Shown in pieces: positions 8,356-21,285 of a DNA stretch of 64,000 nt. Where the stretch lies: NCBI RefSeq assembly GCF_011742165.1, contig NZ_JAAQTO010000028.1:1-64000 (forward strand), read 5' to 3'. The position numbers were made by a program, and so were the translations under genes. Numbering within the stretch: position 1 is the stretch's first letter; each line of letters starts with the position of its first letter. The stretch comes from Billgrantia bachuensis. Lineage in GTDB: Bacteria > Pseudomonadota > Gammaproteobacteria > Pseudomonadales > Halomonadaceae. The notes below the pieces were generated by a model. It had not been told where the DNA came from and searched no databases. It worked only from the letters and a program-made list of their open reading frames with translations.

Positions 8356-10398
8356 TTACTCCGCGGGAGCGAATTCCAGCAGCACATCCCCCTGGCCTAC
8401 CGTATCGCCGGCGTTGAAGTGGAAGCTTTCCACGTGGCCGTCGGCGGGGGCGGTCATGGTGTGTTCCATCTTCATGGCTTCCATGACCATCAGCGGCATG
8501 CCTTTCTCCACCTTCTGACCGGCTTCCACCAGCAGCGCGACCACGGTGCCGTGCATCGGCGCGGTGAGGGTCGATTCGGCTTCGTGGTGGCCGTGGTCGA
8601 TGGCGTCGATACGGCGCCAGAACAGACGGGTTTCGCCACGCGGATCGACCATGACGACGACGCTACCGTTGCGCCGGGCCTGCAGCCGGCGGCGGTGGCC
8701 GTTGAGGGTAACGGCCACGGCGTCGCCTTCCAGATGCTGCAGGCGGGCGGTGAGGGTCTCGCCGCCGATGGTCAGGTCCCATGGGTCCGCGCCGCTGGCC
8801 CGGGTGCCTTCCACGACCACCACGCTCGCTTCGTCCTGCACATGGGCCGGGTCGCAAAGCGAGATGCGGATGGTGTGCGGGGCGTTGAGGCGGAAGCCGT
8901 CGTGGCGGTCCCAAGGGGAGTCGCTCTCGCACTCGCGGGCAAGCTGGTTGAGGCCGATCAGGGCGGCGCCGGCGTACTCCTCGGTGGTGTACTGTTTGGG
9001 CGCGAACAGGGTAGCTTCGTTCTTCTCGATGAAGCGGGTATCCAGCTCGCAGGCCTTGAACGCGGGGTGCGTGGCCAGCCGCTGCAGGAAGGCGCGGTTG
9101 GTCACCACGCCCTGCACGTCCAGCGCGGCGAGCGCGCGGTTGAGGGTGGAGAGCGCCTGGTCGCGGTCGTCGCCGTGGACGATCAACTTGGCGAGCATGG
9201 GGTCGTAGTGCATCGAGACCGCGTCGCCGGTTTCCACGCCGCTGTCCAGGCGCACCTGGCGCGGGTCGAGTCCGGCGCCCTTGAGGTCCATGGCGAAACG
9301 CTCGAGCTTGCCGGTGGCAGGCAGGAAGTCCTGCTCCGGGTCTTCGGCGTAGAGGCGCGCCTCGAAGCTGTGGCCGGTGATGGTCAGCTCCTCCTGCTTG
9401 AGCGGAAGGGCTTCACCCATGGCCACGCGCAGCTGCCACTCGACCAGGTCCTGGCCGGTGATCATCTCGGTGACGGGGTGCTCCACCTGCAGGCGTGTGT
9501 TCATCTCCATGAAGTAGAAGGAGCCATCCGCATCCAGGAGGAATTCGACGGTCCCGGCGCCCACGTAGCCGATCTCCTTGGCGGCGCGCACGGCGGCTTC
9601 GCCCATCTCGCGGCGCAGCTCGGGCGTCATGCCGGGGGCGGGGGCTTCCTCGAGCACCTTCTGGTGGCGGCGCTGCACCGAGCAGTCGCGCTCGAACAGG
9701 TAGACGCCGTTGCCATGGCGGTCGCAGAACACCTGCACTTCGACGTGGCGCGGCTGGGTCAGGTACTTCTCGATCAGCATGCGGGTGTCGCCGAAGGCGG
9801 CCTGGGATTCGCGACGGCAGCCGTCCAGGGCGGCCTGGAACTGCTCAGGGGCTTCCACCACGCGCATGCCCTTGCCGCCGCCCCCGGCACTGGCCTTGAG
9901 CAGCACCGGGTAGCCGATCTTGTCGGCCTCGGCCTTGAGCAGGGCGTCGTCCTGGTCGTCACCGTGGTAGCCCGGTACCAGCGGCACGCCGGCGTTGGCC
10001 ATGCGCGCCTTGGCGGCGGACTTGTCGCCCATGGCGGCAATCGCCGAGGCAGGCGGGCCGACGAAGGTGATGCCGGCAGCATCCAGCGCCTCGACGAAGG
10101 CGCCGTTCTCGGAGAGGAAGCCGTAGCCGGGATGAATGGCGCCGGCGCCGGTGCGCTTGGCGGCTTCCACCACGGCTTCTACCTTCAGGTAGCTCTCGCG
10201 TGCGGCGGCCGGGCCCAGGCGCACGGCCTCGTCGGCTTCGCGCACGTGGCGTGCGTTGGCGTCGGCGTCGGAGTACACGGCCACGGTGCGCAGGCCCATG
10301 GCGCGGGCGGTGCGCATCACGCGGCAGGCGATCTCGCCGCGGTTGGCGACCAGCAGGGTGTCGAAGGGCGTGGTGCGGGAATCGTGGGTCTGACTCAT
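8356..10398 (-). CDS. liuD: 3-methylcrotonyl-CoA carboxylase biotin-carboxylase (alpha) subunit
   Basis: Carboxylates its own biotin with ATP and bicarbonate, for transfer to 3-methylcrotonyl-CoA by LiuB in leucine breakdown. It has 680 residues: biotin-carboxylase N-domain from LLVANRGEIACRVMRTA (residue 16), ATP-grasp loop KASAGGGGKGMR, the RDCSVQRRHQK motif, and a C-terminal biotinyl domain with MEAMKM (biotin Lys 643). Its place at the end of liuABC, not the domain architecture alone, separates it from propionyl- or geranyl-CoA carboxylase. The ATG overlaps the liuC stop by 4 bp. No HMG-CoA lyase (liuE) follows; the next gene is the unrelated RecJ-like gene. Confidence 0.92.
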   Translation of the reverse strand: MSQTHDSRTTPFDTLLVANRGEIACRVMRTARAMGLRTVAVYSDADANARHVREADEAVRLGPAAARESYLKVEAVVEAAKRTGAGAIHPGYGFLSENGAFVEALDAAGITFVGPPASAIAAMGDKSAAKARMANAGVPLVPGYHGDDQDDALLKAEADKIGYPVLLKASAGGGGKGMRVVEAPEQFQAALDGCRRESQAAFGDTRMLIEKYLTQPRHVEVQVFCDRHGNGVYLFERDCSVQRRHQKVLEEAPAPGMTPELRREMGEAAVRAAKEIGYVGAGTVEFLLDADGSFYFMEMNTRLQVEHPVTEMITGQDLVEWQLRVAMGEALPLKQEELTITGHSFEARLYAEDPEQDFLPATGKLERFAMDLKGAGLDPRQVRLDSGVETGDAVSMHYDPMLAKLIVHGDDRDQALSTLNRALAALDVQGVVTNRAFLQRLATHPAFKACELDTRFIEKNEATLFAPKQYTTEEYAGAALIGLNQLARECESDSPWDRHDGFRLNAPHTIRISLCDPAHVQDEASVVVVEGTRASGADPWDLTIGGETLTARLQHLEGDAVAVTLNGHRRRLQARRNGSVVVMVDPRGETRLFWRRIDAIDHGHHEAESTLTAPMHGTVVALLVEAGQKVEKGMPLMVMEAMKMEHTMTAPADGHVESFHFNAGDTVGQGDVLLEFAPAE

Positions 10399-11225
10399 GA
10401 GCGGCGCTCCGAGGAATTCGTGTTGTCGTCGGCCCAGGCGGGGCGGCGCTTCTCGAAGAAGCTGGTCAGGCCTTCCTGACCTTCGGCGCTCACGCGCAGC
10501 TCGCTGATCACGCGGCAGGTGTGCTCGCGGGTGGCCTTGCTGTCGGCGTCGCGAGCCACTTCGGCGAGCAGCGACTTGGTGGCGCGCTGGGCCTGGGGCG
10601 AGCCGGCCAGCAGGGTCTCGATCATTTCACTCACGGCCTCGTCGATATGATCGTGGCCGACGATCTGGTGGGCCAGGCCCAGTTCCAGCGCCTTGTCGGC
10701 GTCGATCACCTCGGCGGTGAGCGCGTAGCGGCGCATCTGACGCGAGCCCAGGGCGCGCTGCACGTAGGGGCTGATCACGGCGGGCGAGAGACCGATCTTG
10801 ACCTCGGAGAGGCAGAACTTGGCCTTCTCGGAAACGATCACCACGTCGCAGCAGGCGGCCAAACCTACGGCCCCGCCGAAGGCGGCCCCCTGCACGCGGC
10901 ACACGGTGGGGCAGGGCAGGGTGTCCAGGCCGTGCATCAGCTGCGAGAGCTTGCGCGAGTCGGCCAGATTGCCCTCGAAATCGTACTCCACCATGCGCTT
11001 CATCCAGTTCAGGTCGGCGCCGGCGGAGAAGCTCTTGCCCTCGGAGCCCAGCACCACCACGCGCACCTCGCCGTGGCGAGCGGCGTCGTGGAGCTTGTGG
11101 AGATGCTCGTTGAGCTCGGCGATCAGGCTGTCGTCGAAGGCGTTGTGCACCTCGGGACGGTTCAGCGTCAGCCGGGCGGCGCCGCGATCGTCGATGTTCA
11201 GGTTCGAATATGTCTGTGTGGTCAT
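10395..11225 (-). CDS. liuC: Methylglutaconyl-CoA hydratase (enoyl-CoA hydratase family)
   Basis: Hydrates 3-methylglutaconyl-CoA to HMG-CoA in the leucine pathway. It has 276 residues of crotonase fold: oxyanion-hole segment SFSAGADLNWMKRM (about 66-79) and VQGAAFGGAVGLAACCDVVI (about 110-130). The isomerase-type Glu pair is replaced as in methylglutaconyl-CoA hydratases. It overlaps liuD by 4 bp (ATGA) but is separated from liuB by an unusual 180-bp spacer rich in repeats. Its substrate is inferred from the liu gene order. Confidence 0.9.
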   Translation of the reverse strand: MTTQTYSNLNIDDRGAARLTLNRPEVHNAFDDSLIAELNEHLHKLHDAARHGEVRVVVLGSEGKSFSAGADLNWMKRMVEYDFEGNLADSRKLSQLMHGLDTLPCPTVCRVQGAAFGGAVGLAACCDVVIVSEKAKFCLSEVKIGLSPAVISPYVQRALGSRQMRRYALTAEVIDADKALELGLAHQIVGHDHIDEAVSEMIETLLAGSPQAQRATKSLLAEVARDADSKATREHTCRVISELRVSAEGQEGLTSFFEKRRPAWADDNTNSSERRS

Positions 11226-11261
11226 GTCACTGTCCTGATGGCTGCGAGCCCGAGGAAGAGT

Positions 11262-11404
11262 GCGGCTGCGCCGCTATAAGAGGGAAGAACGGCGCTGCGC
11301 GCCTTGAAGAGGGAAGAACCCCTATCTTGCCTTCCTTCTTCTGTATTCTTCACTCTTACATCTTCTCTCTTCCTTCTTACCTCTTCCTTCTCGCGCAACG
11401 CGCG
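11262..11404. repeat. Intercistronic repeat block: three short hairpins, a duplicated 13-mer and a heptamer tandem array
   Basis: Between liuB and liuC lie hairpin GCGGC-TGC-GCCGC (11262-11274), AAGAGGGAAGAAC (11278-11290), hairpin GGCGC-TGC-GCGCC (11291-11303), the same AAGAGGGAAGAAC (11307-11319), then seven consecutive heptamers of form NNNTCTT (11344-11392, last copy imperfect), and hairpin CGCGC-AAC-GCGCG (11392-11404) next to the liuB stop. On the transcribed strand the array reads as purine-rich AAGANNN units resembling repeated ribosome-binding sites. Its composition differs sharply from the flanking genes. Confidence 0.8.
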
Positions 11405-11405
11405 G

Positions 11406-13013
11406 CTACATCCGGAAGACGCCGAACTTGGTTTCCTGTACTTCCGCATTCATCGCCGCGGCGAGCGACAGCCCCAGCACGTCGCGGGTCTGGGCCGGGT
11501 CGATCACGCCGTCGTCCCACAGCCGCGCGCTGGCGTAGTAGGGGTGGCCCTGGTGCTCGTACTGCTCGCGGGTGGGCTGCTTGAAGGCTTCCTCCTCCTC
11601 CTTACTCCACTCGCGGCCTTCGCGCTCGTACTGTTCGCGCTTGACCTGGGCCAGCACGCCGGCGGCCTGTTCGCCGCCCATTACCGAAATGCGCGCGTTG
11701 GGCCACATGAACAGCAGGTTGGGTTCGTAGGCGCGGCCGCACATGCCGTAGTTGCCGGCGCCGAAGCTGCCGCCGATCAGCACGGTGAACTTGGGCACCT
11801 TGGCACAGGCCACGGCGGTGACGAGCTTGGCGCCGTGCTTGGCGATGCCTTCGTGCTCGTACTTGGAGCCGACCATGAAGCCGGTGATGTTCTGCAGGAA
11901 CACCAGCGGGATCTTGCGCTGGGCGCACAGTTCGATGAAGTGGGCACCCTTCACCGCGGATTCGGAGAACAGCACACCGTTGTTGGCGACGATACCCACC
12001 GGGTAGCCGTGGATGTGGGCGAAGCCGGTGACCAGGGTGTCGCCGTAGTAGCGCTTGAATTCGTCGAAGTCGGAGTCGTCGACGATACGGCCGATCACCT
12101 CGCGCACGTCGAACGGCTTCTTGAGGTCGGTGCCGACGATGCCGTAGATCTCGCTGGGGTCCAGCCGCGGGGGCTTGGGCTCCTGCATCTTGAGCTGGCC
12201 GCGCTTCTGCCAGTTCAGCCGCGACACACAGGCGCGGGCGAGCTGGAGGGCGTGGGCGTCGTTCTCGGCGTAGTGGTCGGCCACGCCACTCTTCTTGGCG
12301 TGCACGTCGGCGCCGCCCAGGTCCTCGGCGCTGATGCTCTCGCCGGTAGCGGCCTTCACCAGCGGCGGGCCGCCGAGGAAAATGGTGCCCTGCTGCTTGA
12401 CGATGATCGACTCGTCGGCCATGGCTGGCACGTAGGCGCCGCCCGCGGTGCACGAGCCCATCACCACGGCGATCTGCGGGATGCCTTCGGCTGAGAGGGT
12501 GGCCTGGTTGTAGAAGATGCGCCCGAAGTGGTCGCGGTCGGGGAACACTTCGTCCTGGCGGGGCAGGAAGGCACCGCCGGAGTCGACCAGGTAGATGCAC
12601 GGCAGGCGATGCTTGCGGGCGATCTCCTGGGCGCGGATGTGCTTCTTCACCGTGAGCGGGTAGTAGGTGCCGCCCTTGACGGTGGCGTCGTTGGCGACGA
12701 TCACGCACTCCACGCCACTCACACGGCCGATGCCGGTGACTACGCCGGCGGCGGGTACGTCGCTTTCGTATACCTCATGGGCGGCCAGCGCCGAGAACTC
12801 GAGGAAGGGCGAGCCTTCGTCGATCAAGTGGTCGATGCGGTCGCGCACGAACAGCTTGCCGCGGGATTCGTGCCGGGTGCGGGCCTTCTCGCCGCCGCCC
12901 TGGCTGATCGCCGCGGTCAGCTCGCGCAGTTTCATCACCTCGTGGCGCATGGCCTTTTCGTTGGCCTGGAAGCCGTCGCTGCGCGGGTTGACCTGGGTGT
13001 TCAAAATCGCCAT
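11406..13013 (-). CDS. liuB: 3-methylcrotonyl-CoA carboxylase carboxyltransferase (beta) subunit
   Basis: Transfers carboxyl from LiuD biotin to 3-methylcrotonyl-CoA. It has 535 residues with two crotonase-like halves: the N-terminal part has [20 protein letters not shown] and [12 protein letters not shown]-type CoA contacts, and the C-terminal part has [20 protein letters not shown] and [16 protein letters not shown], all characteristic of MCCase beta rather than propionyl-CoA carboxylase. The ATG follows GGGGAG and lies 11 bp after liuA. The gene is followed by the repeat spacer before liuC. Confidence 0.93.
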
Positions 13014-20388: not shown

Positions 20389-20466
20389 GCAAGGCACCCT
20401 CGAGTATTCAGCAAAGGGCCAGGCGATGGGGAAGCCGGGTGAGGAAACCAGGATGAGGAAACCAAG

Positions 20467-21285
20467 GTGGGAGCCAAAGTGAAGCAAGGATTCGACTGTC
20501 ACGCCCATGTCTATCCGCAGGTGGATGAGATCGAGGGCTCCAACTATCGTCCGTCGCGGCCGGCGCCCTTGCATGAGTGGCAGGCACATCTGGAGGCATG
20601 CGAGCTTCGCGGTGGCGTGCTGGTGCAGCCGAGCTTCCTCGGCCACGTCAATCGTGAGCTTTTGCTTATCCTCGGCGAACTGGGGGGAAACTACCGCGGA
20701 GTGGTCCAGCTTCCCAAGGAGGCCAGCTTGACCGAGATGCGCCAGCTCGATGCGGCCGGCATCGTCGGCGTGCGCTGGAACCTGATCGAACGGCGCCGCG
20801 AACTTCCTGACCTGGATGATCCGCAATGGATCGATTTCCTCGACCGGCTGAAGGCGCTGGACTGGCACCTGGAGCTGCACCTCGAGGGAGATCGCCTGCC
20901 CGAACTCTTCCCCGCGCTGCACGAGCATGGCGTCACCCTGGTGATCGATCACCTGGGTCTGCCCGTCGAGGCCGATCCTGGCGCCGATGCCGGTTTCCGC
21001 CTGTTGCTGAAAGCCGGCCGGTACGGCCACACCTGGGTCAAGCTGTCGGCACCTTATCGCTCCCCGGTGCGCGACCTGCGCCCCCATGTGCGCGAGTTGC
21101 TGAGCGAGCTGGGGCGCGAGCGGCTGGTGTGGGGCAGCGACTGGCCCTGGACCCGCCATGAGGGCAAGCATAGCTACCGGGACACCTTCGACTGGCTGGC
21201 CGGTTGGATCGGCGATGAAGACGACCGTCGTTATATCCTGGAGGAATCGCCACAAGCTCTCTTTCGGTTGGGCGACGTTACCTGA
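20467..21285 (+). CDS. LigI-like TIM-barrel metal-dependent hydrolase (amidohydrolase superfamily, COG3618)
   Basis: 272 residues with the superfamily metal motif FDCHAHVY near the N-terminus, a middle barrel with LVIDHLGLP (about 158-166) and VWGSDWPW with the catalytic Asp near 224. This matches 2-pyrone-4,6-dicarboxylate lactonases and related sugar-lactone hydrolases. It is divergent from GntR-tctCBA, which points to hydrolysis of an imported carboxylated lactone. The GTG at 20467 follows GAGG; a second in-frame GTG at 20479 (after GGGAG, spacing 5) is equally plausible. The upstream sequence holds a 14-bp-period duplication, TGAGGAAACCA at 20440 and 20454. Confidence 0.82.
   Translation: MGAKVKQGFDCHAHVYPQVDEIEGSNYRPSRPAPLHEWQAHLEACELRGGVLVQPSFLGHVNRELLLILGELGGNYRGVVQLPKEASLTEMRQLDAAGIVGVRWNLIERRRELPDLDDPQWIDFLDRLKALDWHLELHLEGDRLPELFPALHEHGVTLVIDHLGLPVEADPGADAGFRLLLKAGRYGHTWVKLSAPYRSPVRDLRPHVRELLSELGRERLVWGSDWPWTRHEGKHSYRDTFDWLAGWIGDEDDRRYILEESPQALFRLGDVT

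Follow-up and report, generated by a model that had tools for sequence, protein, structure and literature searches.

A heptamer-array element between liuB and liuC of Billgrantia bachuensis: a candidate member of a family of modular gene-end repeats in Halomonadaceae

What fills the one wide gap in the liu operon of Billgrantia bachuensis? The window analyzed here, 64,000 nucleotides of one contig, carries four genes that we take, from gene order and background knowledge, to be liuA, liuB, liuC, and liuD; one of the four Liu proteins passed an NCBIfam cutoff, its match being a biotin carboxylase subfamily model. A sequence-only reading of the window had remarked on an unusual block between otherwise tightly packed genes, and the packing is indeed tight, with 11 bp between liuA and liuB and a 4-bp overlap of liuC and liuD. 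Going by the ORF bounds, the liuB-liuC gap measures 180 bp (11226-11405), all of it occupied by a repeat element. In our best reading, this block is a single copy from a family of modular repeats placed at gene ends in Halomonadaceae. Its parts are as follows.

11406-13013, minus strand: liuB
10395-11225, minus strand: liuC
11226-11405, minus strand: the whole liuB-liuC intergenic region, a repeat element (from the ORF bounds; a near-identical element lies in the same gap of Billgrantia saliphila)
11392-11404, minus strand: stop-proximal mini-hairpin, CGCGC-GTT-GCGCG on the mRNA strand, its loop not G-N-A on either strand
11347-11385, minus strand: AAG arm, with six exact heptamers that read AAGANNN on the mRNA strand and TCTTNNN on the plus strand
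11340-11392, minus strand: degenerate extension of the array seen in the sequence, a TCTG unit before and a TCTC unit after it in the plus-strand reading
11313-11322, minus strand: GGGGTTCTTC, start of the CTT stretch, resembling by eye GGGGTTTCTT of other copies
11307-11319, plus strand: 13-mer AAGAGGGAAGAAC, copy 2
11278-11290, plus strand: 13-mer AAGAGGGAAGAAC, copy 1
11291-11303, minus strand: GGCGC-GCA-GCGCC, a mini-hairpin with a G-N-A loop, within the CTT stretch
11262-11274, minus strand: GCGGC-GCA-GCCGC, a mini-hairpin with a G-N-A loop, within the CTT stretch
11254-11311, plus strand: 29-bp unit of hairpin plus heptamers, in tandem (11254-11282, 11283-11311); the 29-bp spacing of hairpin units recurs in genome G139, contig 6
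11233-11236, minus strand: AGGA, the likely Shine-Dalgarno sequence of liuC, outside the array

Read along the mRNA, the liuB stop is followed by a hairpin, the AAGANNN heptamers, a spacer, GGGGTTCTTC, and CTTC units with two hairpins. Seven exact NNNTCTT units had been claimed for 11344-11392; six TCTT cores keep the exact 7-bp spacing (11347-11385, plus strand), but the seventh unit reads CCT-TCTC. The six-core pattern has one match in the window and none in 100 dinucleotide shuffles. The reported duplication of a hairpin and a 13-mer was borne out, as two 29-bp copies that are 72% identical, each with a 13-nt triloop hairpin; a scan of the whole window found no third occurrence of AAGAGGGAAGAAC at up to one mismatch. 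Two features come in addition to that earlier description: the third hairpin (11392-11404), beside the liuB stop codon and with a non-G-N-A loop, and the pairing of the two halves of the block. In the predicted fold, the purine-rich left half pairs with the pyrimidine-rich right half, with a z score of -3.35 as DNA (0 of 200 shuffles fold equally well) and -2.20 as RNA (5 of 200). The second (CTT) arm of this copy is interrupted by the hairpins and has no run of three units. No Rfam covariance model matched across 11226-11405 at E values up to 1, and no intrinsic terminator (GC hairpin plus T tract) was matched on the minus strand between 10200 and 13200. The block is real, is not a product of chance, and is not unique. 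Elsewhere in the window, a 14-bp tandem repeat, GATGAGGAAACCAG, lies in 2.9 copies at 20425-20464, just ahead of a called gene start at 20467.

Looking for the array and the 13-mer across the genome and its relatives, as had been suggested, showed the repeat to be dispersed in both. The 13-mer AAGAGGGAAGAAC has 18 matches at up to one mismatch in its own genome, 3 of them exact, and the 180-bp block matches at 10 places with E below 1e-3, itself included. Many of the 14 own-genome stretches that we inspected share its anatomy; two (L017 and L021) are bare 13-mer matches without it. Some arrays are one-armed (L045, L075). A LiuB homologue search listed at least 80 loci, 61 from Halomonadaceae and 19 from outside the family; among the matches listed, the best six are Billgrantia, at 99 to 97% identity. 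The B. saliphila gap holds the same element with an identical array, differing by three substitutions, one 1-bp indel, and a stop-codon change. Across 151 family genomes, the number of five-unit AAG matches runs from 0 to 516. The extremes are G139, with 516 in 2.8 Mb, and G115, with 415 in 3.3 Mb; contig 6 of G139 also shows three hairpin units at 29-bp spacing. Order-wide, AAG arrays occur in 115 of 293 genomes, 12 family members included, in a count made without a period-8 control. The layout of stop, AAG arm, core, and CTT arm was also seen, in a CAAG flavor, in other families of the order (L167, L169, L170).

Where do the copies sit? Of the 16 own-genome arrays examined (in 15 gaps), 14 come after a gene of the same orientation; the distance from its stop codon is at most 24 nt for 13 of these, with a median of 8 nt over all 14. 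Eight of the 15 gaps are convergent, 7 co-directional, and none divergent. The base rate in 227 own-sample gaps of at least 60 bp is 25 convergent, 139 co-directional, and 63 divergent (Fisher P = 0.0002 for the convergent and 0.014 for the divergent gaps), a sample biased, like the own-sample run census, by the partial placement of its 20 stretches over known matches; the whole-genome counts are separate from it. Genes were called with a home-made caller, which probably overlooked one in an 848-bp gap (L003/L181). Among 33 arrays in 29 array-selected family loci, 3 are in called genes, 1 is in a divergent gap, 8 are antisense, and 21 are sense, 17 of the last within 50 nt of a stop. Anchoring to stop codons is thus strong in the own genome and looser elsewhere.

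Period 7 is specific. Five AAG cores at spacing 7 match the own genome 22 times, with overlaps, at 11 places; at spacing 8 there are no matches. Because GAAG reads both ways, a backward pattern is an unclean control for AAG arrays, and period 8 was used instead, at the family level only: period-7 arrays occur in 99 of 151 genomes (19 of 24 genera), compared to 38 of 151 (15 of 24) for period 8, where the matches listed are mostly perfect simple repeats. One period-8 repeat, AAGCGGCC, is dispersed in a few family genomes (G052, G145, G032, G092). Among the matches listed, the 61 Halomonadaceae LiuB loci (451,675 bp) hold 33 period-7 runs of at least four AAG, at 15 loci and all intergenic, and a single such run for periods 5, 6, and 8 to 12 pooled; the 19 LiuB loci from outside the family gave no AAG period-7 runs. 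The sequence-only reading had named a general low-complexity stretch found in many genes as grounds for refutation; instead, period-7 runs within called genes number 0 in two census samples and 3 of 33 in the family loci. When 396 gaps were scanned blind to the letters, 69 windows showed period 7, compared to 9 in Markov-resampled sequence (observed/resampled for the other periods: 5, 55/52; 6, 29/12; 8, 2/1; 9, 2/0; 10, 3/0; 11, 0/0). In 86 degenerate arrays, the differences between units are not evenly spread over the heptamer positions: phase concentration is 5278, compared to 5012 by permutation (sd 25), and 41 of the 86 conserve the triplet AAG/CTT or AGC/GCT. This goes beyond plain slippage, under which the differences would spread evenly.

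Many copies have a second array of reverse-complement units some 20 to 80 bp beyond the first. We compared the arms of 28 two-arm elements, a set in which two places are counted in two frames (L080, L159) and from which the window copy was left out because its second arm has no run of three. The bases flanking AAG match between arms at 73% and 80%, while the two middle bases are only 28% and 38% identical, and so the unit is best written [GT]AAG[AC]NN. Non-core positions pair at 66%, compared to 51% when arms are swapped between elements (sd 3.8; highest of 1,000 swaps, 62%). Pairing of the two middle bases was considered separately and, judged by eye from the counts, is no better than expected. 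Selection for pairing would at most be limited to AAG and its neighbors, and homogenization of the arms could also produce such matches.

Alignments of nine species bear on the same point. In the liuA-liuB gap, the arms are paired in the consensus fold, and at two of the pairs both partners change, from U-A to G-C; in the liuB-liuC gap, such changes fall at 6 of 25 pairs, two of them in the small stop-proximal hairpin. The RNAalifold covariation terms are small (-0.2 and -0.44, values that carry no shuffled-alignment baseline). More broadly, the RNA fold z score has a median of -3.0 in 37 array gaps (31 of 37 below -2), compared to -0.8 in 60 others (19 of 60).

Intrinsic bidirectional terminators sit at gene ends and between convergent genes. 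The repeats resemble them in both respects, although the window copy has no terminator match. One own-genome copy (L186) encloses a full terminator, with the GGGGTTTCTT core in other copies, and many convergent gaps of the own sample use, by eye, ordinary GC hairpins. A TTT or TTTC tract stands at the inner end of 18 of 123 runs and at the outer end of 3 of 123; as a general feature of the inner arm end, this minority was rejected.

Taken together, the best explanation, to which we give a probability of about 0.48, is a modular gene-end repeat that evolves by slippage, whose transcript can form a long imperfect hairpin, and which may have a role at transcript ends or between cistrons. We lowered this estimate slightly, from 0.50, because stop-anchoring is looser in the family loci. 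We infer that the arms expand and contract through replication slippage, with gene ends as the sites where such insertions would do least harm. Lying inside transcription units, the arms would be transcribed, and the AAG arm could then pair with the CUU arm to give a long imperfect hairpin behind the stop codon. Such a hairpin might slow or partly stop RNA polymerase, block 3′-to-5′ decay, or both. In the liu operon, the element would loosen expression of liuC and liuD from that of liuA and liuB; between convergent genes, it might work from both sides.

Slippage itself, proposed by the sequence-only reading, finds support at an orthologous convergent site, C9:27406-27526, for which 41 genomes of the genus were searched, giving 30 loci, 26 with both flanks. 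Three relatives have the same element there. Their exact AAG units number 7, 2, and 2, compared to 6 in the own genome, and the lengths, stops included, are 132, 96, and 74 bp, compared to 125 bp. Copy number here thus varies by whole units, as in a simple slippage repeat: in the two nearest relatives, the AAG arm differs by +7 and -28 bp. The third lacks the first hairpin module as well, and in G456, one of the three, the differences go beyond heptamers. Two other genus members have differently lettered heptamers behind the same stop (AAGCGCC in L246, AAGCTGG in L253), and the other 20 loci have, by eye, unrelated or very short sequence. Arrays seem to change by slippage, apparently arising repeatedly at gene ends.

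The same observations would fit a neutral or selfish repeat, with arrays that owe their origin and spread to slippage and chance and that persist at gene ends, without function, because they are tolerated there. From the sequence evidence, this is nearly as likely as the 3′-hairpin reading, and we regard it as a serious possibility. Presence is patchy at both kinds of site examined, the arrays behind one stop codon can be differently lettered, as just described, and copy number ranges from 0 to 516 matches among genomes. Among the matches listed, the liuB-liuC gap of 59 resolved Halomonadaceae (2 more are unresolved) holds arrays in 13, only 4 to 19 bp in 38, REP-like elements in 4, and other sequence in 4; the liuA-liuB gap of 60 (1 more unresolved) holds arrays in 16, is short in 29, and has REP-like elements in 7 and other sequence in 8, the REP-like class in each case resting on a loose GTAGGAG/GTGGGAG pattern. 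The sequence-only reading had suggested that the block could set the LiuC/LiuD to LiuB ratio; with 38 of 59 relatives having a 4- to 19-bp liuB-liuC gap, the block is not needed there. Gaps in this catabolic operon can be opened by different repeats at the same places, which also suits a neutral origin. Against it, the conserved core phases, the matching flavors of the two arms, and the G-N-A preference described below exceed what plain slippage would give, although homogenization could mimic the first two. The REP-like repeats were seen between liuB and liuC in L040, L074, L076, and L086 and between liuA and liuB in L040, L042, L043, L046, L082, L089, and L090.

The mini-hairpins of the element have stems of 5 to 7 bp and mostly G-N-A loops on the CTT strand. 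Counting stems of at least 5 bp in gaps that were not hairpin selected (the own sample and the LiuB loci listed), 38 array gaps hold 37 hairpins with three-base loops, 29 of them G-N-A or its complement; loops of 4, 5, and 6 bases account for only 3, 12, and 4. In 345 gaps without arrays, there are 80 with three-base loops (20 G-N-A), with 107, 97, and 105 for the longer loops. Twenty-five gaps chosen by arrays alone hold 7 (4 G-N-A), with 8, 7, and 8 for the longer loops, so the hairpins are not tied to every array. A wider set of 93 hairpins includes loci L194 to L223, which were selected with a pattern that itself contains G-N-A; 17 of the 93 cannot be oriented, and on the local CTT strand the other 76 comprise 55 G-N-A (4 of them liuB ribosome-site hairpins), 4 T-N-C, and 17 other loops. 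In the part of PMC4686876 available to us, which draws on work by Hirao and Yoshizawa, closing a G-N-A loop with G-C pairs gives a DNA mini-hairpin of exceptional stability; the loop and its closing pair are those found here, although there they serve as an aptamer tool, not as a genomic repeat module.

The modules are also removable. At one heptamer junction of the liuB-liuC alignment, 3 of 9 species carry an exact 15-bp hairpin module that the other 6 lack. Among the 151 family genomes, 45 (from 9 of 24 genera) have a 20-base hairpin unit, whose reversed pattern gave no matches; in the order-wide draw, the unit occurs in 4 of 12 family genomes and in none of 281 others. The pattern matched in six viral contigs too, none of the matches adjoining an AAG array, and so the 20-base pattern alone can occur outside the element.

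REP/BIME elements, with their RAYT transposases, are dispersed intergenic hairpin repeats built on a single palindrome unit. A mobile origin had been suggested for the block, and one can envision a nonautonomous element recognized through single-strand mini-hairpins, in the way that RAYT transposases recognize REPs: similar copies are dispersed, the triloop hairpins have strand-specific G-N-A loops, and the 15-bp module is exactly present or missing at one junction. Nevertheless, we think this unlikely. The transposase domain Y1_Tnp (PF01797) has no match in the own genome, and over the 151 genomes its presence is unrelated to that of the hairpin unit (15 of 45 genomes with the unit, 41 of 106 without). 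Neither constant ends nor target duplications were seen by eye in the own-genome copies inspected. Unlike REP/BIME elements, the copies carry heptamer arrays instead of a single palindrome unit. A GTAG-type tetranucleotide beside the hairpin is not, by eye, constant among own-genome copies; the GTAG beside the third hairpin of the window is the liuB stop region, and B. saliphila has GTAA there.

That the purine-rich AAGA units on the mRNA act as several weak ribosome sites in a row, or provide liuC with a standby site, is very improbable: 122 nt separate the array from the liuC start, liuC has its own AGGA, 8 of the 15 own array gaps are convergent with no following start on the AAG strand, other flavors (AAGCTCG, TAAGCTG) do not resemble Shine-Dalgarno sequences, and placement at stop codons speaks against ribosome sites for a following gene.

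How do these repeats relate to those already described? According to the portions of PMC4679880 and PMC4692102 that we could consult, heptameric repeats are overabundant in bacteria, with slippage proposed and function left open; the former cites Mrazek (2007), where heptamers are reported to form the largest class of long simple repeats in most genomes, with polymerase slippage proposed as their origin. The nearest known kind appears to be the GGGNATC heptamer family of Xanthomonas and Nostoc (Rehm et al. 2015, PMC4692102). In the text available, those repeats are mostly noncoding, favor sense-strand positions no more than 50 bp from stop codons, and are underrepresented between divergent genes; their unit number varies between relatives, and inverted pairs are mentioned. 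The Halomonadaceae arrays share the heptamer period, the proximity to stop codons, the rarity in divergent gaps, and the variation in unit number. However, their core is AAG rather than GGG, and a second arm and G-N-A mini-hairpin modules, common here, set them apart from the GGGNATC repeats as that text describes them. Four GGG tracts are, by eye, absent from the window array and present in some AGAGGGA copies (L019; G458 = L235); the G-quadruplex as a common principle was rejected, many copies having no GGG at all.

The TAACTGA repeats of marine Beggiatoaceae (MacGregor 2015, PMC4679880), as far as the accessible text goes, are likewise intergenic heptamer direct repeats with a patchy distribution. 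Unlike the Halomonadaceae arrays, they lie mostly upstream of start codons, keep an exact unit, and are described there with no inverted arm or hairpin module. A search for literature on such repeats in Halomonas returned nothing relevant; most subscription journals fell outside it, and we do not claim that such reports are absent from print.

The repeats described here add to the gene-end heptamers a type whose core is different, which often has two arms and whose mini-hairpins are removable, spread over a bacterial family with many sequenced species. They allow a direct question, whether 7-bp gene-end arrays are by-products of slippage or devices of the 3′ end. A more far-reaching idea, which we consider doubtful, is that AAG-core heptamer arms with strand-specific G-N-A mini-hairpins make up an undescribed, structure-selected class of gene-end element, one that would offer folding or binding sites to a dedicated cellular factor working on single-stranded DNA or RNA at gene ends and whose two-arm layout would repeatedly have emerged or spread across several families of the order.

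A last observation concerns the start of liuB in relatives. At about positions 2984 to 3000 of L051, L068, L077, L078, and L088, the likely liuB Shine-Dalgarno sequence, GGAG, overlaps the GGA loop of a hairpin (for example, CATCTC-GGA-GAGATG) just before the start.
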